From the NCBI GenBank assembly GCA_035063765.1, contig JAPSFT010000007.1, positions 1 to 64,000 on the forward strand: 64,000 nucleotides of DNA, given 5' to 3'. Position 1 is the first letter of the stretch, and every line of letters begins with the position of its first letter. The DNA comes from Deltaproteobacteria bacterium (lineage in GTDB: Bacteria > Myxococcota_A > UBA9160 > PR03). Shown piece after piece: positions 21,074 through 55,368 of the stretch. The position numbers and the translations under genes are program-made. The notes beneath the pieces were generated by a model that was not told the origin of the DNA, made no database searches, and saw only the letters and a program-made list of their open reading frames with translations.

Positions 21074-21201
21074 GGCCCTGGCTCGAGCAAGGACGATGCC
21101 AGCCGGCGGAGGGCCTCAGGGCGGTGTGGCCGAAGGCTCCCCGGGAGCTGCCACACGACACGCTTTGCGGCCACCTACTCCTCGTCAAGGAGGAATCCCG
21201 C

Positions 21202-47079: not shown

Positions 47080-48660
47080 TCACCCCTGCTGCAGCCAGCT
47101 CTGGATGGCCTTCACGCTCTCGTCCGCCCGGGCGCGCGCGAGCTGCGCCGCGCCCGCCGGACTCGGCCCGCTGGCACCGGCCGCCGCGGCAGCGAGCGTG
47201 CCACCGCCGAGCTCCACCTCGAGGTCCGAGACGCGTGCGGGCAGCCGCGGCGCGCCCGCCCCGCCCAGTGCCGCGAGCAGCGGGCGGACGACGAAGACAC
47301 CCGCCAACGCCAGCGCAGCGAGCAGCACGAGCCCGCGCAGCACCTGCGCGAGCAGCGGCCAGGCGGGGCCGTCGCTCCAGCCACCAGCCTCGCCAGCGTC
47401 GCCCTCCGGAGCGTCCTGGAAGGCGGCGTTGGCGATCGTCAACTGGTCGCCGCGCTCCTCCGAGAAGCCGATGGCGCGCTTCGCCAGTGCCTCGAAGTCG
47501 CGTAGCGCCGGCTCTTCCCACGGCGTGAAACCACCATCGGCGCCGCTCTTGCCGTCGAGGAGGACGGCGACGGTGAGGCGCCTCACCGTACCCGAAGGCT
47601 CGACCGAGCGGCGGACGGTCTTGCTGAGCTCGTAGTTGATCGTCTCGCTGGTGCGCGAGCTGCGCCGGCTCGCGCCTCCGCCGCTGCTCGCCGGCGTCTC
47701 GGTCGTACCCGGCACGTTCGAGGCCACGCCGGGTGGGCCCTCGGCGAGCCCCACCCCGTCCTCGTCGGTCTCGACGGTGCGCTGCTCGCTGCGCTCGATC
47801 TGGGAGTCGGGGTCGAAGCGCTCTTCGGTCTCCTCGGTCTGCGTCCAGTCGAGGTCGGCGCGCACCTGCGCCACGACACGGCCCGCGCCCACCACCGGCG
47901 CCAGGATCGCCTCGACGCGCTGCCCCAGCTCACGTTCGAGCCGGGCCTGGTACTCGCCGGTACCGGCCGGCTGCGCCGGGTCGACCCCGTCGTCGCCGGC
48001 GGGTGCGAGCATGCGCCCGCGTCCGTCCACGACCGTGACGCGGTCTGCCGCCAGCCCCTCCACCGACGACGACACCAGGTGCACGACGCCGCGCACCTGC
48101 GCCGCGGACAGCGCTGCGCCCGGATGCAGCTCGACGATCACCGAGGCGCTCGGCTTGCGCTCGCGGTCGCCGACGAAGGGCGAGCGCTCGGGCAGCGCGA
48201 TCTGCACCCGCGCCCGCATCACCGGCTCGAGCTGGGCGATCGAGCGCGCCAGCTCGCCTTGGAGGGCGCGCCGGTAGTTGACGCGGTGCACGAAGTCCGT
48301 GACCCCGAAGTCCGGCTTGTCGAAGAGCTCGAAACCGGCGCCGCCGCCCGCCGGCAGGCCCTGGCCCGCGAGCTGGATGCGCGCCGCGTAGACGCGGTCG
48401 GCCGGCACCTGCACTTCGTTGCCCCCCGCCGCGAGCTGGTAGGGGATCCGCTCCCCGTCGAGTACCTCGACGACGCGGGCCATCTCCTCCGGAGCGATAC
48501 CGCGGAACAGCGGCGCCCAGGTCGGGCCGCCCGCGCCGGCGCCGAGCCAGGCGAAGAAGGCCAGCGAGCCGACCGCCGTCGCTGCGAACAGCAGCCGGCG
48601 GCCGAGCGGCCAGGCCAGGAACTGCGTGCGGAGGTTCTGGAGCCAATCGGGCATCGGCAT
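47080..48660 (-). CDS. fliF: Flagellar MS-ring protein FliF
   Basis: The 526-residue protein has two membrane helices, RRLLFAATAVGSLAFFAWLG near the start and RGLVLLAALALAGVFVVRPL near residue 440. The periplasmic ring-building motifs include GTWAPLFRGIAPEEMARVVE-like sequence, FDKPDFGVTDFVHRVNYRRA, and RVQIALPERSPFVGDRERKP then SASVIVEL. The C-terminal cytoplasmic tail, which binds FliG in other species, ends DESVKAIQSWLQQG. That tail is typical, so a FliG should exist somewhere in the genome. Confidence 0.95.
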   Translation of the reverse strand: MPMPDWLQNLRTQFLAWPLGRRLLFAATAVGSLAFFAWLGAGAGGPTWAPLFRGIAPEEMARVVEVLDGERIPYQLAAGGNEVQVPADRVYAARIQLAGQGLPAGGGAGFELFDKPDFGVTDFVHRVNYRRALQGELARSIAQLEPVMRARVQIALPERSPFVGDRERKPSASVIVELHPGAALSAAQVRGVVHLVSSSVEGLAADRVTVVDGRGRMLAPAGDDGVDPAQPAGTGEYQARLERELGQRVEAILAPVVGAGRVVAQVRADLDWTQTEETEERFDPDSQIERSEQRTVETDEDGVGLAEGPPGVASNVPGTTETPASSGGGASRRSSRTSETINYELSKTVRRSVEPSGTVRRLTVAVLLDGKSGADGGFTPWEEPALRDFEALAKRAIGFSEERGDQLTIANAAFQDAPEGDAGEAGGWSDGPAWPLLAQVLRGLVLLAALALAGVFVVRPLLAALGGAGAPRLPARVSDLEVELGGGTLAAAAAGASGPSPAGAAQLARARADESVKAIQSWLQQG

Positions 48661-48663
48661 CGT

Positions 48664-48966
48664 TCACACCTGCATCCGCATGATCTCGTGGTAGGCCTCG
48701 AGTGCGCGGTCGCGCACCTGGGTCACGAGCTGGACCGAGAGCTCGGCCCGCGACAGCGACACCATCGTCTCGACCACGTCGCCCTGGCCCGCGGCCAGCG
48801 CGCGGGCTCGTGCTTCGGCGTCCTGCTGCACGCGGTCGGCGTCCTCGAGCAGCGCGCCGAGCCGCTCCGCGAAGCTGCCGCCGGCAGCCGCGCGCGGCCC
48901 GCCGGCGGCGGGCGCCGGATCACCCGCCAGTGCGCGGGCCCCGCTCTCGATGGCGCCCGTCGTCAC
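48664..48966 (-). CDS. fliE: Flagellar MS-ring/rod adapter FliE
   Basis: A 100-residue protein, standard for FliE. It has SFAERLGALLEDADRVQQDA and ends VVETMVSLSRAELSVQLVTQ then VRDRALEAYHEIMRMQV, the conserved C-terminal helices. It joins the FliF ring to the proximal rod. It overlaps flgC by four bases and is 3 bases from fliF. Confidence 0.92.
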   Translation of the reverse strand: MTTGAIESGARALAGDPAPAAGGPRAAAGGSFAERLGALLEDADRVQQDAEARARALAAGQGDVVETMVSLSRAELSVQLVTQVRDRALEAYHEIMRMQV

Positions 48967-49388
48967 CGGCCGATCCGCAGGGCGGCTTCGCCCATCTCGC
49001 GCGTCTTCTTGAGCGCAAGCAGGTCCGCCTCGAACGAGCGGCTCGCCGTGAGCAGGTTCGCGAGCTCCGCGACCAGGTCGACGTTCGGCATGCGCACGTA
49101 GCCCTCGGCGTCGGCATCGGGATGGCCCGGATCGAAGCGCAGCGGGCCCGGCGTCGGGTCGATCTCGACGCGCGGGACCTCGACGCTTCGCAGGCGCCGC
49201 GCCAGCCGGTCGGCGAACGGGCCCTCGAGCGCACGAGCGGCGAAGACGGGGTCGCGTCGCTGATACGGCCCACCCTCGGCGGTGCGGGTGGTCTGGGCGT
49301 TGGCGAGATTCGAGGCAGTCACGAGCATGCGCGCGCGCTGCGCGAGCAGGCCCGAGACGGCCACGTCAGAGATCTGCGTGAGGCTCAT
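48963..49388 (-). CDS. flgC: Flagellar proximal rod protein FlgC
   Basis: The 141-residue protein begins ISDVAVSGLLAQRARMLVTA then SNLANAQTTRTAEGGPYQRR, the FlgC N-terminal rod motif. It ends GYVRMPNVDLVAELANLLTA and SRSFEADLLALKKTREMGE, the C-terminal rod helix. It lies in the order flgB-flgC-fliE that is standard for proximal rod genes. Confidence 0.94.
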   Translation of the reverse strand: MSLTQISDVAVSGLLAQRARMLVTASNLANAQTTRTAEGGPYQRRDPVFAARALEGPFADRLARRLRSVEVPRVEIDPTPGPLRFDPGHPDADAEGYVRMPNVDLVAELANLLTASRSFEADLLALKKTREMGEAALRIGR

Positions 49389-49402
49389 GATCGATGGCCC
49401 TC

Positions 49403-49777
49403 CTAACGGCCGCGCCCGAGTGCGATCTGGCGCAGCGCGAACAGCCGCGAGAGCACCTCGGCCTGCTCGCGGAAGGCCCCGGCGTTGCGGGACAGCGCCA
49501 CCAGCTCGCGGTCGACGTCGACGTCGTTGCCGTCCGGGCGCGGAGCGCCGCCCTGGGCGGTGATCCGCCAGCCCGACGCGGCGTCGCCGCCGAGATGGCC
49601 GGCCTGGGTGCGGCGCGGCGCCGCACCGCGCGCGAGCGCGTCGGCGAAGGTGACCTCCGCGCTTCGGTAGCCGGGCGTGTCGGCATTCGCGACGTTGGCC
49701 GCGAGCACGGCCTGGCGCGCAACGCGGAAGCGCATCGCGTCCTCGACCGCGGAAACGGTCCCCCCGAGCCAGTCCAA
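49403..49777 (-). CDS. flgB: Flagellar proximal rod protein FlgB, TTG start
   Basis: The 124-residue protein starts LDWLGGTVSAVEDAMRFRVA and then has ANVANADTPGYRSAEVTFAD, the rod-protein consensus. It ends FREQAEVLSRLFALRQIALG. A longer frame from an ATG at 49816 exists. The sigma-54 promoter at 49821-49835 would start transcription near 49809, inside that extension. A perfect AGGAGG (49786-49791, minus strand) lies eight bases before the TTG at 49777, which also gives the family-standard N-terminus. I therefore call the TTG as the start. It is the first gene of the rod/basal-body operon. Confidence 0.88.
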   Translation of the reverse strand: MDWLGGTVSAVEDAMRFRVARQAVLAANVANADTPGYRSAEVTFADALARGAAPRRTQAGHLGGDAASGWRITAQGGAPRPDGNDVDVDRELVALSRNAGAFREQAEVLSRLFALRQIALGRGR

Positions 49778-49785
49778 GCGCCGGT

Positions 49786-49791
49786 CCTCCT
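49786..49791 (-). promoter_or_regulatory. Ribosome binding site supporting the TTG start of flgB
   Basis: AGGAGG on the minus strand, eight bases before TTG. The alternative upstream ATG has no such site. Confidence 0.75.
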
Positions 49792-49820
49792 GCGGCGGTG
49801 CGCCGCGGCCTGCCATCGAA

Positions 49821-49835
49821 GCAACTGTCGTGCCA
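49821..49835 (-). promoter_or_regulatory. Sigma-54 promoter of the flgB operon
   Basis: The minus strand reads TGGCACGACAGTTGC: a consensus -24 TGGCACG and -12 TTGC with 10 bases between the invariant GG and GC. Transcription would start near 49809, giving a leader of about 30 bases to the flgB TTG. It lies in the 189-base gap after the degraded activator gene. Confidence 0.85.
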
Positions 49836-49966
49836 CTTGCGGCCCCCTGGTGAAACCGTCGTGATCACGCGGACCTGGACCCGGCGGCCGCTCTCCGGGC
49901 GGGACCCGCGCGCCATCGCACATCGCAACCTGAAATGTCGGAGTGGAAAGGTCTGCCGACCCAGGT

Positions 49967-51190
49967 CTACACCAGGCCATAGTGATGGAGCTTGTTGCGC
50001 AGCGTGCGCACGCTGATCCCGAGCGCGCGTGCTGCCCGGGTCCGGTTGCCCGCGCACAGCGCGAGCGCCTGCTCGACCGCGCGACGCTCGAGCGCGCGCA
50101 GGTCGAGCACCGGCGCCGCCGCCGCCCGGCGGGCGCGCGCGGCCGCGTGCGGCGCCAGGAGCGCTGCCACGTCGACAGCCTCGCCCGGGAACCACAGCAC
50201 CGCGCGCTGCATCAGGTTCTCGAGCTCGCGCAGGTTCCCGGGAAACGGATGCTGGCACAGCGCGGCGAGCGCGGCGGCGCCGAGCCGTGGCGGTGCGACA
50301 CCCTGTGCCGCGGCGAATCGCTCGCCGAGAGCCACGGCGAGCCGCGCCAGCTCGTTCGGCCGCTCGCGCAGCGGCGGTACGAACAGCCGCACGACGTCGA
50401 GGCGCAGTCGAAGCTCCGCGCGCAGCCTCGCGTCGGGGCCGAGAGGGCGCTCACAGATGACCACGACGCGCGGCGCAGCGCCGGCGCCGAGCCCGGCGAG
50501 CAGCCGTGCCTGGGCCACGGGCGACAGAGCGCCCGGCTCCACCAGCACGAGCGTTCCGTCCCGAGCCGCCGCCAGCGCTCCCTGGGTGCCACCGCCGTCG
50601 CCGAGCAGCACGGAGCCGGCCTGGTCGAGCTCGCGCGCATCGAGCTCCATGAGCGGACCGTCCCGGCGCGAGCTTGCCGCGTGCAGATAGCGCGCGAGGC
50701 GGCGCCTCCCGGTGGCGGCCTCGCCCACGATCGCGACGGTGGCGTCGGCACGCGCCGCAGCCTCGGCCTCGCGGACCAGCGCCTGCATCGCGGGATCGCC
50801 GGGGACCGGCGCGAAGTGCGGCGCGAGCGGACCGCGCGCGTGCTGGCCGGCCGCTGCCGCGAGCGCGCGCTCGAGGGCGCGCACGTCGAAGGGCTTGCCG
50901 AGGAAGGCGCGCGCGCCGCCTCGCAACGCCCGCACGGCGAGCGCGAGTCGATCCCGTTCGCCCATCCCGATCGCTGCGGGCGCGTCGGGCCGCCGGCACA
51001 GGCGCTCGAGCCCGGCCACGTCCGCGTCGTCGGCGAGGTCGGTCAGCACCAGGGTGAAGGCGCCGGGATCGCCCGCGAGCGCGGCGTCGAGGCTCGGAGC
51101 GGTGTCGACGCGCCATCCCGCCGCGCGTACGCATCCCGCGAGCAGCTCCGCCAGAGCCGGGTCCGGCTCGACGATCAGGACCCGCTGCAC
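49967..51190 (-). CDS. FlgR/NtrC-like regulator with degraded AAA+ ATPase motifs
   Basis: The protein has 407 residues in three parts. A receiver (1-115) retains D51 and K99. An AAA+ domain of sigma-54-activator ancestry follows (120-345), then a Fis-type HTH (CAGNRTRAARALGISVRTLR). The ATPase is damaged. Walker A is GEAATGRR (156-163), with Arg in place of the Lys of GESGTGKE. Walker B is GTLVLVEPG, with Val for the Asp. The sigma-54-contacting GAFTGA loop is replaced by a shortened GGGTQGA. Later motifs are normal (LRERPNELARLA, PFPGNLRELENLMQRA). DNA binding is plausible but ATP-driven sigma-54 activation is not. The GTG start overlaps the upstream kinase-like gene by 16 bases. Confidence 0.82.
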   Translation of the reverse strand: MQRVLIVEPDPALAELLAGCVRAAGWRVDTAPSLDAALAGDPGAFTLVLTDLADDADVAGLERLCRRPDAPAAIGMGERDRLALAVRALRGGARAFLGKPFDVRALERALAAAAGQHARGPLAPHFAPVPGDPAMQALVREAEAAARADATVAIVGEAATGRRRLARYLHAASSRRDGPLMELDARELDQAGSVLLGDGGGTQGALAAARDGTLVLVEPGALSPVAQARLLAGLGAGAAPRVVVICERPLGPDARLRAELRLRLDVVRLFVPPLRERPNELARLAVALGERFAAAQGVAPPRLGAAALAALCQHPFPGNLRELENLMQRAVLWFPGEAVDVAALLAPHAAARARRAAAAPVLDLRALERRAVEQALALCAGNRTRAARALGISVRTLRNKLHHYGLV

Positions 51191-51899: not shown

Positions 51900-54143
51900 C
51901 TAGCCATCCCCGCGCGTGAGCCGCGCGTCGTGCAAGCTCGCCACGGCTCGACGCTCGCGGGCCAGCGCCGACCACGCTCCGCCCGACGGCTCGGCCGCAC
52001 TCGCCGCGAAGGCGGCTTCACCCCGGTCGTCGCCTTCGGGCGCGAGCGCGCCGATCCAGTAGTGCGCCTGCGCGCGGCGCTCGCCCGGCGGCAGCGCTGC
52101 TGCAGCGAGGGCGTAGAGAGAGGCGGCCCGGCTGCCGCTCCCCTCACGGCGCGCACGATGGGCGGCCAGCAGCGCGGCGTCGCCCAGGGGCTCTCCACCG
52201 CTGGCGGGACCGAGCTCGTCGCCGAGGCGCTCGACCGCACCGATCAGCCGCTCCCCCAGATCGAGGTCACGCGGCGCGCTGCGCGCAGCGCGCGTGAGCA
52301 CGATCAGCGCGGCGATCTGCTCCGCGGGCGCGACGGGCGCAGGAGGGACCTGCACGCGGAGCGGCACCGGCGGATCCGACGCCAGGGCGGCGGCGTTCGC
52401 TGCCGGATCCTGCGACTGCGCATCCCTGTCGAACGAGGCAGTCGCGTCGGACCGTCCCGCCGCATCCAGCGGAGCCGCCGCTGGCGCCAGGGGAGCGGGC
52501 GCGAGCAGCGGCGCCACCATTGCCGCCGCGCCGGCCGCATCACCGCGCGCCAGCGCCACCTCGGCGCGCAGCCGGCGCCAGGCGGCGCCGTCGTCGCCCG
52601 GTGCTTCGAGGCGCTCGTTGGCGGCGGCCGCGACGGCGTCGAGCTGGCCGACGGCGAGCAGGCCTTCGGCGAGCCCGAGCGCGACCGCCGCCCGGCCGCG
52701 CGGGCCGAAGCCCCGCACGACGGCTCGCTGCAGGGGCAGCGCCGCCTCCGGGCCGAGCAGCTCTGCCTGGCACCGCGCCAGCGCCGCCAACGGTGCGGGA
52801 TCCGGGGCGCGGTGCAGGAGCGCATCCAGGTGCGGTGCGAGCAGATCGACGAGCTGCGGGCAGTCGAGATCGTCACCGATCTGGGTCGACAGCCGCGCGA
52901 GCACATCGCCGAGCGTAGCGTCGGCTTCCTCGCCGCCGAGTGCCAACACCCGCTCGAGCGCGGCCGTCGGCCGGTCCGCGAGCAGGTCGAGCCGCGCCGC
53001 GAGCCGGCGCGCGTAGTCCGCGATCGGAGCCGGCTCCGGCCCATCGAGCGCTGCCAGCCGCTCCACCAACTCGGCCGTCCGCAGCTCGCGTGCAGGGGCG
53101 GCCAGGCCGCTTTCCTTCGCCAGCGCGTCGAGATCGAGCTCCAGCACACGCAGCTCCGCCAGTCGTGCAGCCGGCGCCTGCGGGTCGACCCTCCGCACGA
53201 TCTCGAGCTGTGCGCGAGCCTCTCCCTCGCGCCCGGCGCCGGCCAGCAGCTCCGCGAAGCGCAGGTGCGCCACCGCCCGATGCGGCTCGTCGAGCTCCGC
53301 TTCGAGCGCGCGCTCGAACCGGGTCCGAGCGTCGTCCGTGCGGTCGAGCGCGGCAGCCGCGGCGGCGCTGCGCACCACGAAGGGGCCGACCGGGACACCG
53401 CGCGCCGCGGCGCGCGGCAGGGCTGCATCGGCGGCAGCCAGCGCGGTGCGGCTCGCGCCGTGCGCAAGTGCGATGTCGGCAAGGCGGAGAGCGGCGAGCT
53501 CCGGGAGCCCGGCGGGCAAGCGCGGCGACACTGTGTCAGCCGTGGCGAAAGGCGCCTCGCCCGCGGGCGGTGGCATCTCCGAGCGGGCCGTGCCGTCGGC
53601 GGCGCTCCGTTCGGTCTCCCCCCCTCGCGTTGGCTCGGCCTCGTGCCCGCCCTCCGCGGCTCCCGCGTCCATGGCTTCGGTGAGCGTGCGGTAGAGCGCC
53701 TCCGCCTCCTCGACGCGCCCGGCGGCCAGCAGCGCCTCGGCGCGTAGCCAGCGCGCGGCGGCAGCGGCCTCGCCGGCGCCGGCCGCTTCGGCGAGCGACT
53801 CTGCGCGGTGTGCTTCCGCGGCCGCCTCGGGAACGAGCTCGAGCACGAGGGCAAGGGCAGCGGCGCCGAGCCAGCGGCACGCCGCGGCGTCGGCGGCCGA
53901 CAGCTCACGCGCACTGGCGAGGCGCTCTGCACGCAGGGCGAGCCGGGCTCCGCGGGTCGGAAGCGGGGGCGGCGCCTCCGCGGGACACGCCCAGGCGACC
54001 GGAAGGTCGATCGGCGGCGTCGCCGTGGCGTCCCCGTAGAGCGCCCACCAGGGATCCGGCATCGCGGCTTGCGCGGGAACACCCGGCCCGGACGCGCCGG
54101 CGAGCAAGAGCGCCGTGGCCAGGACCCGCCGGCAGACACTCAT
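51900..54143 (-). CDS. Secreted helical-repeat (TPR-like) protein
   Basis: The 747-residue protein has a signal peptide (RRVLATALLLAGASGPGVPA). The mature part is a long array of alpha-helical hairpins with TPR-like periodicity. Examples are AAAARWLRAEALLAAGRVEE then AEALYRTLTEAMD, and AHLRFAELLAGAGREGEARA then QLEIVRRVDPQAP. Two Ala/Pro-rich insertions occur near residues 170-205 and 540-590. It is probably periplasmic. It is translationally coupled to the PilZ gene (ATGA) within the flagellar cluster. The layout recalls large TPR proteins of flagellar motors or gliding machinery, but no specific homologue is recognised. Confidence 0.7.
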   Translation of the reverse strand: MSVCRRVLATALLLAGASGPGVPAQAAMPDPWWALYGDATATPPIDLPVAWACPAEAPPPLPTRGARLALRAERLASARELSAADAAACRWLGAAALALVLELVPEAAAEAHRAESLAEAAGAGEAAAAARWLRAEALLAAGRVEEAEALYRTLTEAMDAGAAEGGHEAEPTRGGETERSAADGTARSEMPPPAGEAPFATADTVSPRLPAGLPELAALRLADIALAHGASRTALAAADAALPRAAARGVPVGPFVVRSAAAAAALDRTDDARTRFERALEAELDEPHRAVAHLRFAELLAGAGREGEARAQLEIVRRVDPQAPAARLAELRVLELDLDALAKESGLAAPARELRTAELVERLAALDGPEPAPIADYARRLAARLDLLADRPTAALERVLALGGEEADATLGDVLARLSTQIGDDLDCPQLVDLLAPHLDALLHRAPDPAPLAALARCQAELLGPEAALPLQRAVVRGFGPRGRAAVALGLAEGLLAVGQLDAVAAAANERLEAPGDDGAAWRRLRAEVALARGDAAGAAAMVAPLLAPAPLAPAAAPLDAAGRSDATASFDRDAQSQDPAANAAALASDPPVPLRVQVPPAPVAPAEQIAALIVLTRAARSAPRDLDLGERLIGAVERLGDELGPASGGEPLGDAALLAAHRARREGSGSRAASLYALAAAALPPGERRAQAHYWIGALAPEGDDRGEAAFAASAAEPSGGAWSALARERRAVASLHDARLTRGDG

Positions 54144-54682
54144 CGGACGGCGCCTTCCGGTCGCATGCGATGCCGCTGGGCCAGATCCACCCGATTCACG
54201 AGGCGCACGATCGCGTCGCGATCGCTCTCGTCGATCAGCCGGAAGCGCACGCTCACCTCGTCATGCGCGGCGTCGCGCCCGCCCGGGTAGCGCGCGACGA
54301 GCTCCCCGATCGCGGTGACCGGGCCCGCCGTCTGGCCGAGCAGCAGCTCTACCAGCACATCGTCGCCCGCCGCCAGGTCTTCGTCCTCGCATTCCATGCG
54401 CATGCCTGCGCCGGAGATGACGACGCGGCGTAGCGCCTGGGGATCGAGCGGCCGCGGTAGCGTGGGATCGAGCAGGGCGATCATGCGGTCGATCTTGAAC
54501 TCGAGCTGGCGAGCCCAGGCCGGTGCGCTGAGGTCCGCCTGGCCATCGCCGTCAGGATCGGGCCCGGCCAGGCGCTGCTCGAGCGTCGCGACGTCGGCGA
54601 GCGTCGCACGCCGCAGCCGTGCGGCAAGGCGCGTCTCGACGCGGTAGTAGGAGCGGGTCGAGCCGGCGATGCGTTGGGCCAC
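54140..54682 (-). CDS. PilZ-domain protein
   Basis: The 180-residue protein opens with TRSYYRVETRLAARLRR, the R-x-x-x-R part of the cyclic-di-GMP binding motif. The second part, normally (D/N)xSxxG, reads VVISGAGMRME. It continues as strands to VSVRFRLIDESDRDAIVRLV. A helical insertion of about 60 residues separates the two halves, as in PilZ proteins of flagellar or gliding clusters. It probably reports c-di-GMP level to the motor or export machinery. It sits 3 bases after the first gene of the operon and overlaps the helical-repeat gene. Confidence 0.78.
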   Translation of the reverse strand: MAQRIAGSTRSYYRVETRLAARLRRATLADVATLEQRLAGPDPDGDGQADLSAPAWARQLEFKIDRMIALLDPTLPRPLDPQALRRVVISGAGMRMECEDEDLAAGDDVLVELLLGQTAGPVTAIGELVARYPGGRDAAHDEVSVRFRLIDESDRDAIVRLVNRVDLAQRHRMRPEGAVR

Positions 54683-55294: not shown

Positions 55295-55353
55295 CGGGCC
55301 CCTCCGTCGCCGACACACGAATGGATTCCGTGCGGCGCACCCACCCGCAGAGA

Positions 55354-55368
55354 GCAAGGACGGTGCCA
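55354..55368 (-). promoter_or_regulatory. Sigma-54 promoter of the minus-strand flagellar cluster
   Basis: The minus strand reads TGGCACCGTCCTTGC followed by T: the -24 TGGCAC and -12 TTGC elements with 10 bases between GG and GC. The predicted transcript start near 55342 leaves a leader of about 48 bases to the ATG at 55294. Confidence 0.82.

Follow-up and report, generated by a model that had tools for sequence, protein, structure and literature searches.

Where does FlgB begin when two start codons compete and one of them lies inside a promoter? In the 64,000-nt stretch of DNA analysed here (the window), only TTG 49777 and ATG 49816 are available as in-frame starts upstream of the MRFR core of the protein; an in-frame CTG was also looked for before the core and was absent. 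We consider it probable, at roughly 0.88, that flgB belongs to a sigma-54-driven operon and that FlgB starts at TTG 49777 and not at ATG 49816.

Promoter and start codons of flgB

The features on which the question turns are the following:
49835-49820, minus strand: sigma-54 (-24/-12) promoter TGGCACGACAGTTGCT, matching at 12 of 12 scored positions
49816-49814, minus strand: in-frame ATG, rejected as start, 5 nt past the -12 GC and ~7 nt before the point where transcription is predicted to begin
49791-49786, minus strand: Shine-Dalgarno AGGAGG, with an 8-nt spacer to the TTG
49777-49775, minus strand: TTG start codon of flgB
49403-49777, minus strand: flgB coding sequence from the TTG, 124 aa (TIGR01396)
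48963-49388, minus strand: flgC (TIGR01395, 141.6 bits, cut-off 102.1, scored on 48963-49394)
48664-48966, minus strand: fliE (PF02049, E 6.7e-22)
47080-48660, minus strand: fliF (TIGR00206, 299.9 bits, cut-off 129.75)

Boxes were scored against the sigma-54 consensus TGGCACG-N4-TTGCW over 12 positions, with GG at -24 and GC at -12. The perfect box before flgB is unique in the 64 kb, where 0.03 would be expected (three of 100 dinucleotide shuffles had one). Boxes with two or fewer mismatches numbered eight against 6.5 expected, so weaker matches alone carry no meaning. Two such boxes were recorded elsewhere on the minus strand. One (55353-55368, 11 of 12 positions) has its first base 74 nt before ATG 55294, the start of a 202-aa ORF without a family match. 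Next to this ORF comes a PilZ-domain gene (54140-54682), and the longest ORF that can be read in the frame of the 202-aa ORF extends far upstream, across the box. The other (21086-21101, two mismatches, at chance level) immediately precedes an ORF that resembles a response regulator by eye.

Transcripts from sigma-54 promoters usually start 11-13 nt past the -12 GC. By this spacing rule the flgB transcript is predicted to start at about 49809, which would leave a leader of ~32 nt. ATG 49816 lies only 5 nt past the GC and is thus excluded from transcripts made at this promoter, as the initial annotation had argued. From the predicted transcript start to the AMRFR core, TTG 49777 is the sole in-frame ATG, GTG, TTG or CTG, and the AGGAGG that had been reported 8 nt before it is indeed present; AGGAGG-N5-9-DTG is over-represented window-wide (17 vs 5.1). 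RNA folding of the leader was rejected as a supporting signal: the leader is slightly less stable than the majority of its shuffled versions (z 0.88; 165 of 200 were equally or more stable) and two bases of the AGGAGG are paired in the best structure, so that folding offers neither clear help nor clear hindrance.

The family profile agrees with the TTG. Read from this codon, the protein begins MDWLGG, scores 64.0 bits against TIGR01396 (cut-off 59.05) and has residue 7 aligned to profile position 4, in line with the initial claim of a family-typical N-terminus; read from the ATG it scores 63.5 bits, so the 13 extra residues contribute nothing to the match. The operon context with flgC and fliE also fits the rod protein FlgB. 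Counted from the TTG, the invariant Phe falls at residue 44 (alignment of 13 of the 22 proteins described below), which we take to correspond to F45 of Salmonella FlgB. In Salmonella, F45 is described as critical for secretion, and deletion of residues 9-18 or 39-58 reduced it (PMC9307174). Since FlgB leaves the cell through the flagellar secretion system, and export in Salmonella depends in part on the N-terminal half of the protein, the choice of start matters for structural and secretion work.

Taken together, flgB would be the first gene of a flgB-flgC-fliE-fliF operon driven by the sigma-54 promoter and probably read as a single transcript. On RNA beginning near 49809, the ribosome would bind the AGGAGG and initiate at TTG 49777, and the resulting FlgB, at 124 aa, would have the usual length. 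ATG 49816, in frame but lying between the -12 element and the predicted transcript start, would then be a chance codon in promoter DNA.

Alternatively, a longer transcript may allow FlgB to start at ATG 49816 and to carry 13 extra residues (MAGRGAPPQEDRR). Read-through from the upstream regulator gene, which ends at 49967, could in principle span this codon; ATG is also the commoner start, no stop interrupts the frame in the 90 nt before the TTG, and the extra codons are neutral to slightly coding (+0.28). Against these points, no Shine-Dalgarno sequence was found in a search before the ATG, the extension begins just 5 nt past the -12 GC, and the profile score is not raised. The comparison with relatives given below also argues against it, and we judge an ATG start improbable.

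The initial annotation had also thought it probable that an automated pipeline would pick the wrong start. A crude start-caller emulation, combining start type, ribosome-binding site and codon score, with 37 of the window's ORFs (flgB among them) as its training set, instead preferred the TTG over the ATG by 3.1, 6.5 and 14.5 units at its three weightings. The emulation is not Prodigal, its training set is tiny and it weighted TTG above ATG, which is suspicious; on such weak evidence we conclude only that the expectation of an incorrect automatic call finds no support. The longest-ORF reading of flgB was rejected, and a longest-ORF caller would err here.

flgB loci across the order

The order-level sample comprised 79 genomes, 22 of which carried flgB, the window's included. 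Within 300 nt before the core, all 22 loci contain a sigma-54 box matching at 10-12 of 12 positions (15 are perfect), whereas only 42 of 4400 shuffled regions reached 10 and none reached 12. These counts support the sigma-54 promoter proposed by the initial annotation.

Every one of the 22 loci has a start codon at an equivalent place in the protein, 15 codons before the MRFR core (14 in the window). The codon used there is ATG in 17 loci, GTG in three and TTG in two, one of which is the window. Across these sequences it is the start position that is conserved, not the TTG codon. The proposal that TTG and AGGAGG would be conserved in relatives thus held for position but failed for the codon, and Shine-Dalgarno strength varies among the loci. 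The rarity of TTG, and the displacement of the window's start by one codon from the others, weigh against the TTG. In one relative (L030) the start is a TTG preceded by AAGGAGG, and an in-frame stop lies three codons before it.

The predicted transcript start lies 13-106 nt before the conserved start in the 22 loci. Upstream of it, 16 loci have an in-frame start codon, including an ATG in eight, and the window is therefore not unusual in this respect. If the inferred starts are right, longest-ORF calling errs in at least 16 of the 22. The distance from box to start differs among loci by non-multiples of three, like non-coding DNA. The stretch matching the 13-residue extension is interrupted by in-frame stops in three relatives (L029, L030 and L032), with that of L029 at the same place as that of L030 and before an ATG, and it has other lengths elsewhere. 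This pattern weighs against translation from ATG 49816.

Could the box instead be a chance match, with flgB using another promoter? Boxes with two or fewer mismatches do occur at chance frequency in the window, and the enhancer-binding protein (EBP) homologue encoded next to flgB is without GAFTGA. Set against this, the window's match is perfect, boxes are present in all 22 flgB loci, and all 18 flgF loci with enough upstream sequence (19 loci in total) carry a box matching at 11 or more of the 12 positions, a count made without a shuffle comparison; a chance box is highly improbable. As for a shorter FlgB from the in-frame ATG 49735 (the M of AMRFR), it would lose 14 residues even though length and start codon are kept within one codon in 22 of 22 loci, and the strong AGGAGG precedes the TTG instead, so that we give this reading hardly any credence.

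The probable initiation at TTG 49777 is an ordinary but useful correction, and it illustrates that a promoter can decide between alternative start codons. It also points to the decayed regulator next door. That a perfect sigma-54 promoter should have a decayed activator as its neighbour is the more interesting lead, and it raises the question of how the rod genes are switched on in this group.

The linked regulator, the dyads and a candidate activator

Upstream of the flgB box lie the following:
49926-49935, minus strand: core of dyad 2, TTTCAGGTTG, a putative enhancer site starting 100 nt upstream of the box
49945-49957, minus strand: dyad 1, GGCAGACCTTTCC, a putative enhancer site starting 122 nt upstream of the box
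49967-51190, minus strand: FleR/FlrC/FlbD-like response regulator with a decayed AAA+ domain, 407 aa
51175-51975, minus strand: putative decayed sensor-kinase partner, start approximate (NCBIfam BaeS, weak, E 1.6e-4)

The regulator's start, GTG 51190, was inferred from its REC domain and from a relative (L039) recovered when named genomes were scanned for FlgB (80 loci retained out of 576); the longest ORF extends to 51610. Pfam searches with this longest ORF returned a partial Sigma54_activat match, AAA_lid_14 and HTH_8. The Fis-type C-terminal helix-turn-helix is present (HTH_8, 46.7 bits vs a cut-off of 22), and Response_reg reached 28.8 bits, below its cut-off of 30.2. The Walker A motif reads GEAATGR, with the lysine lost, and GAFTGA is absent; the protein is not an intact EBP. 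Judged from these motifs it looks unable to activate sigma-54, which weighs against the best explanation of the locus. The putative sensor-kinase gene overlaps the regulator gene by 16 nt, an overlap that is identical in L039, and its product had no Pfam match at E 0.001.

A linked regulator homologue with a readable AAA+ domain was available for 19 of the 22 flgB loci, the window and L016 included; two loci (L012 and L021) run off their contigs, and the third (L019) is described below. GAFTGA is missing in 13 of the 19, with the Walker A lysine replaced by arginine in nine of these and kept in four, while the six regulators with GAFTGA or GAFSGA also keep the lysine; loop and Walker A labels were assigned by eye from the alignment. 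Within the window's own family the regulator is intact in G002 and decayed in G000 and G001 (G003 being unreadable). On a tree of 21 rows, made of the 19 linked genes and two intact EBPs from the window's own genome, the 13 decayed members require at least two changes (bootstrap 2-3), although the tree is poorly resolved, with six of 18 inner branches open. At L019 (genome G062), a search of the 1.5 kb upstream of flgB gave no significant homologue of the regulator. The flgB of this locus retains the box and both dyads, although its nearest long upstream open frame runs on the opposite strand.

Both dyads of the window sit between the regulator gene, which ends 9 nt before dyad 1, and the flgB box, and they read approximately GGCAGnnnYTKCC and TTTCAGnnTG. 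Counted with the looser patterns GG[CA]AnnnnYT[TG]CC and TT[TGC]CA[GAT]nnTG, each occurred upstream of flgB in 18 of the 22 loci (means of 0.2 and 0.3 in shuffled sequence, with a maximum of 2), counts that are description and not a test, since the patterns were written after the flgB sequences had been viewed. In the form used for a genome scan, the pair has a single occurrence in the window's own genome.

The flgF loci gave a partly independent test of the dyads, the flgF of the own genome having been viewed before the test was written. That gene scores 168.7 bits against TIGR02490, slightly below the cut-off of 178.5, and passes the FlgEFG subfamily cut-off with 174.4 bits; it has a perfect box and both dyads, dyad 2 being in the opposite orientation. 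Dyad 1 was detected in 12 of 18 flgF upstream regions vs an expectation of 0.15 (no more than 3 in any of 500 shuffles); four of these 12 copies stand just 23-34 nt away from the box and may be unrelated. Dyad 2 was present in the flgB orientation in five of 18 regions vs 0.28 expected, and in the opposite orientation in 12 of 18, the latter counted without a shuffle comparison. An order-wide scan for the pair retrieved 13 matches in 12 of the 79 genomes. Four of them (L119, L120, L128 and L131), all flgB loci, have a sigma-54 box no more than 260 nt downstream in the orientation of the match. The other nine have no box within that distance downstream, including L130, which lies upstream of the flgF of G070 in the other orientation, with a box; the pair alone is therefore not specific. 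An EBP may activate flgB through these upstream dyads.

The genome encodes RpoN (PF04552 at C4:242684-243160, 210 bits) and has 16 TGGCAC-N5-TTGC sites vs two for the reversed control pattern. Sigma-54 activator domain matches number 30, of which 24 exceed 190 bits; weak ones mean little, because the profile also matches all 14 control genomes, archaea included. A second EBP, outside the window at G000:C7:95968-97644 (stop to stop), has GSFTGA and an intact Walker A motif. It lies upstream, on the same strand, of matches to FliM, FliP, FliR, FlhB, FlhA and FlhF: FliP and FlhA pass their cut-offs, FliR, FlhB and FlhF fall slightly short, and the FliM match is weak (60 bits vs a cut-off of 219.6). 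Its relatives in G001 (on the same contig as flgB) and G003 are also intact. A search of the order with its N-terminal piece matched 46 of 79 genomes at E 0.01 or better, mostly weakly and probably through generic receiver domains, and clear relatives were found in G001 and G003 only. This EBP is the most natural candidate for the present-day activator of flgB.

Tentatively, and with the odds against it, the regulator beside flgB could be a former sigma-54 activator that has kept its DNA-binding domain, has lost ATPase activity and sigma-54 contact, and now acts as a non-catalytic, enhancer-bound partner, either brake or scaffold, with the intact EBP supplying catalysis at flgB and flgF. If so, decay in several branches of the order beside an intact flgB promoter would mean that control of the rod genes was rewired while the promoter stayed unchanged.

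Comparison with known systems

A literature search for flawed start calls or TTG starts within sigma-54 promoters showed nothing on the subject among the matches listed, which is not proof of absence, and no paper was found on sigma-54 and flagella in uncultured Myxococcota. Elsewhere, sigma-54 control of flgB has been reported in Geobacter, Vibrio and Pseudomonas, so that the promoter and start described here belong to an already known type. In Geobacter sulfurreducens, flgB-flgC (GSU0407-0408) have a predicted RpoN promoter and expression changes of -1.38 and -1.31, and the RpoN consensus of that genome is given as TTGGCACGGTTTTTGCT (PMC2725144). The window resembles this case in having flgB under a promoter of the RpoN type, predicted here; the portions of the Geobacter account available to us make no mention of an ATG inside the promoter or of a TTG start for flgB (PMC2725144).

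The window's genome is comparable to the FlrBC and FleSR class of flagellar two-component control in having boxes and dyads at flgB and flgF and two EBPs in flagellar clusters. FlrA and FleQ are themselves EBPs. They are required for expression of FlrBC in Vibrio cholerae and FleSR in Pseudomonas aeruginosa, pairs that drive flgB together with sigma-54, and V. cholerae flgF has a separate promoter under sigma-54 and FlrBC (PMC7064773). Unlike those systems, the flgB-linked EBP of the window lacks GAFTGA and the Walker A lysine, a difference seen here at the level of sequence.

EBPs with a defective GAFTGA are listed in the supplement of PMC3162934. NtrC of Caulobacter and of Rhodobacter and VspR of Vibrio have lost the motif and still regulate transcription, and for these three, action at sigma-70 promoters has been reported or argued (PMC10274813). 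The regulator linked to flgB in the window has likewise lost the sigma-54 contact loop; unlike these sigma-70-acting proteins, it is linked to a perfect sigma-54 promoter.
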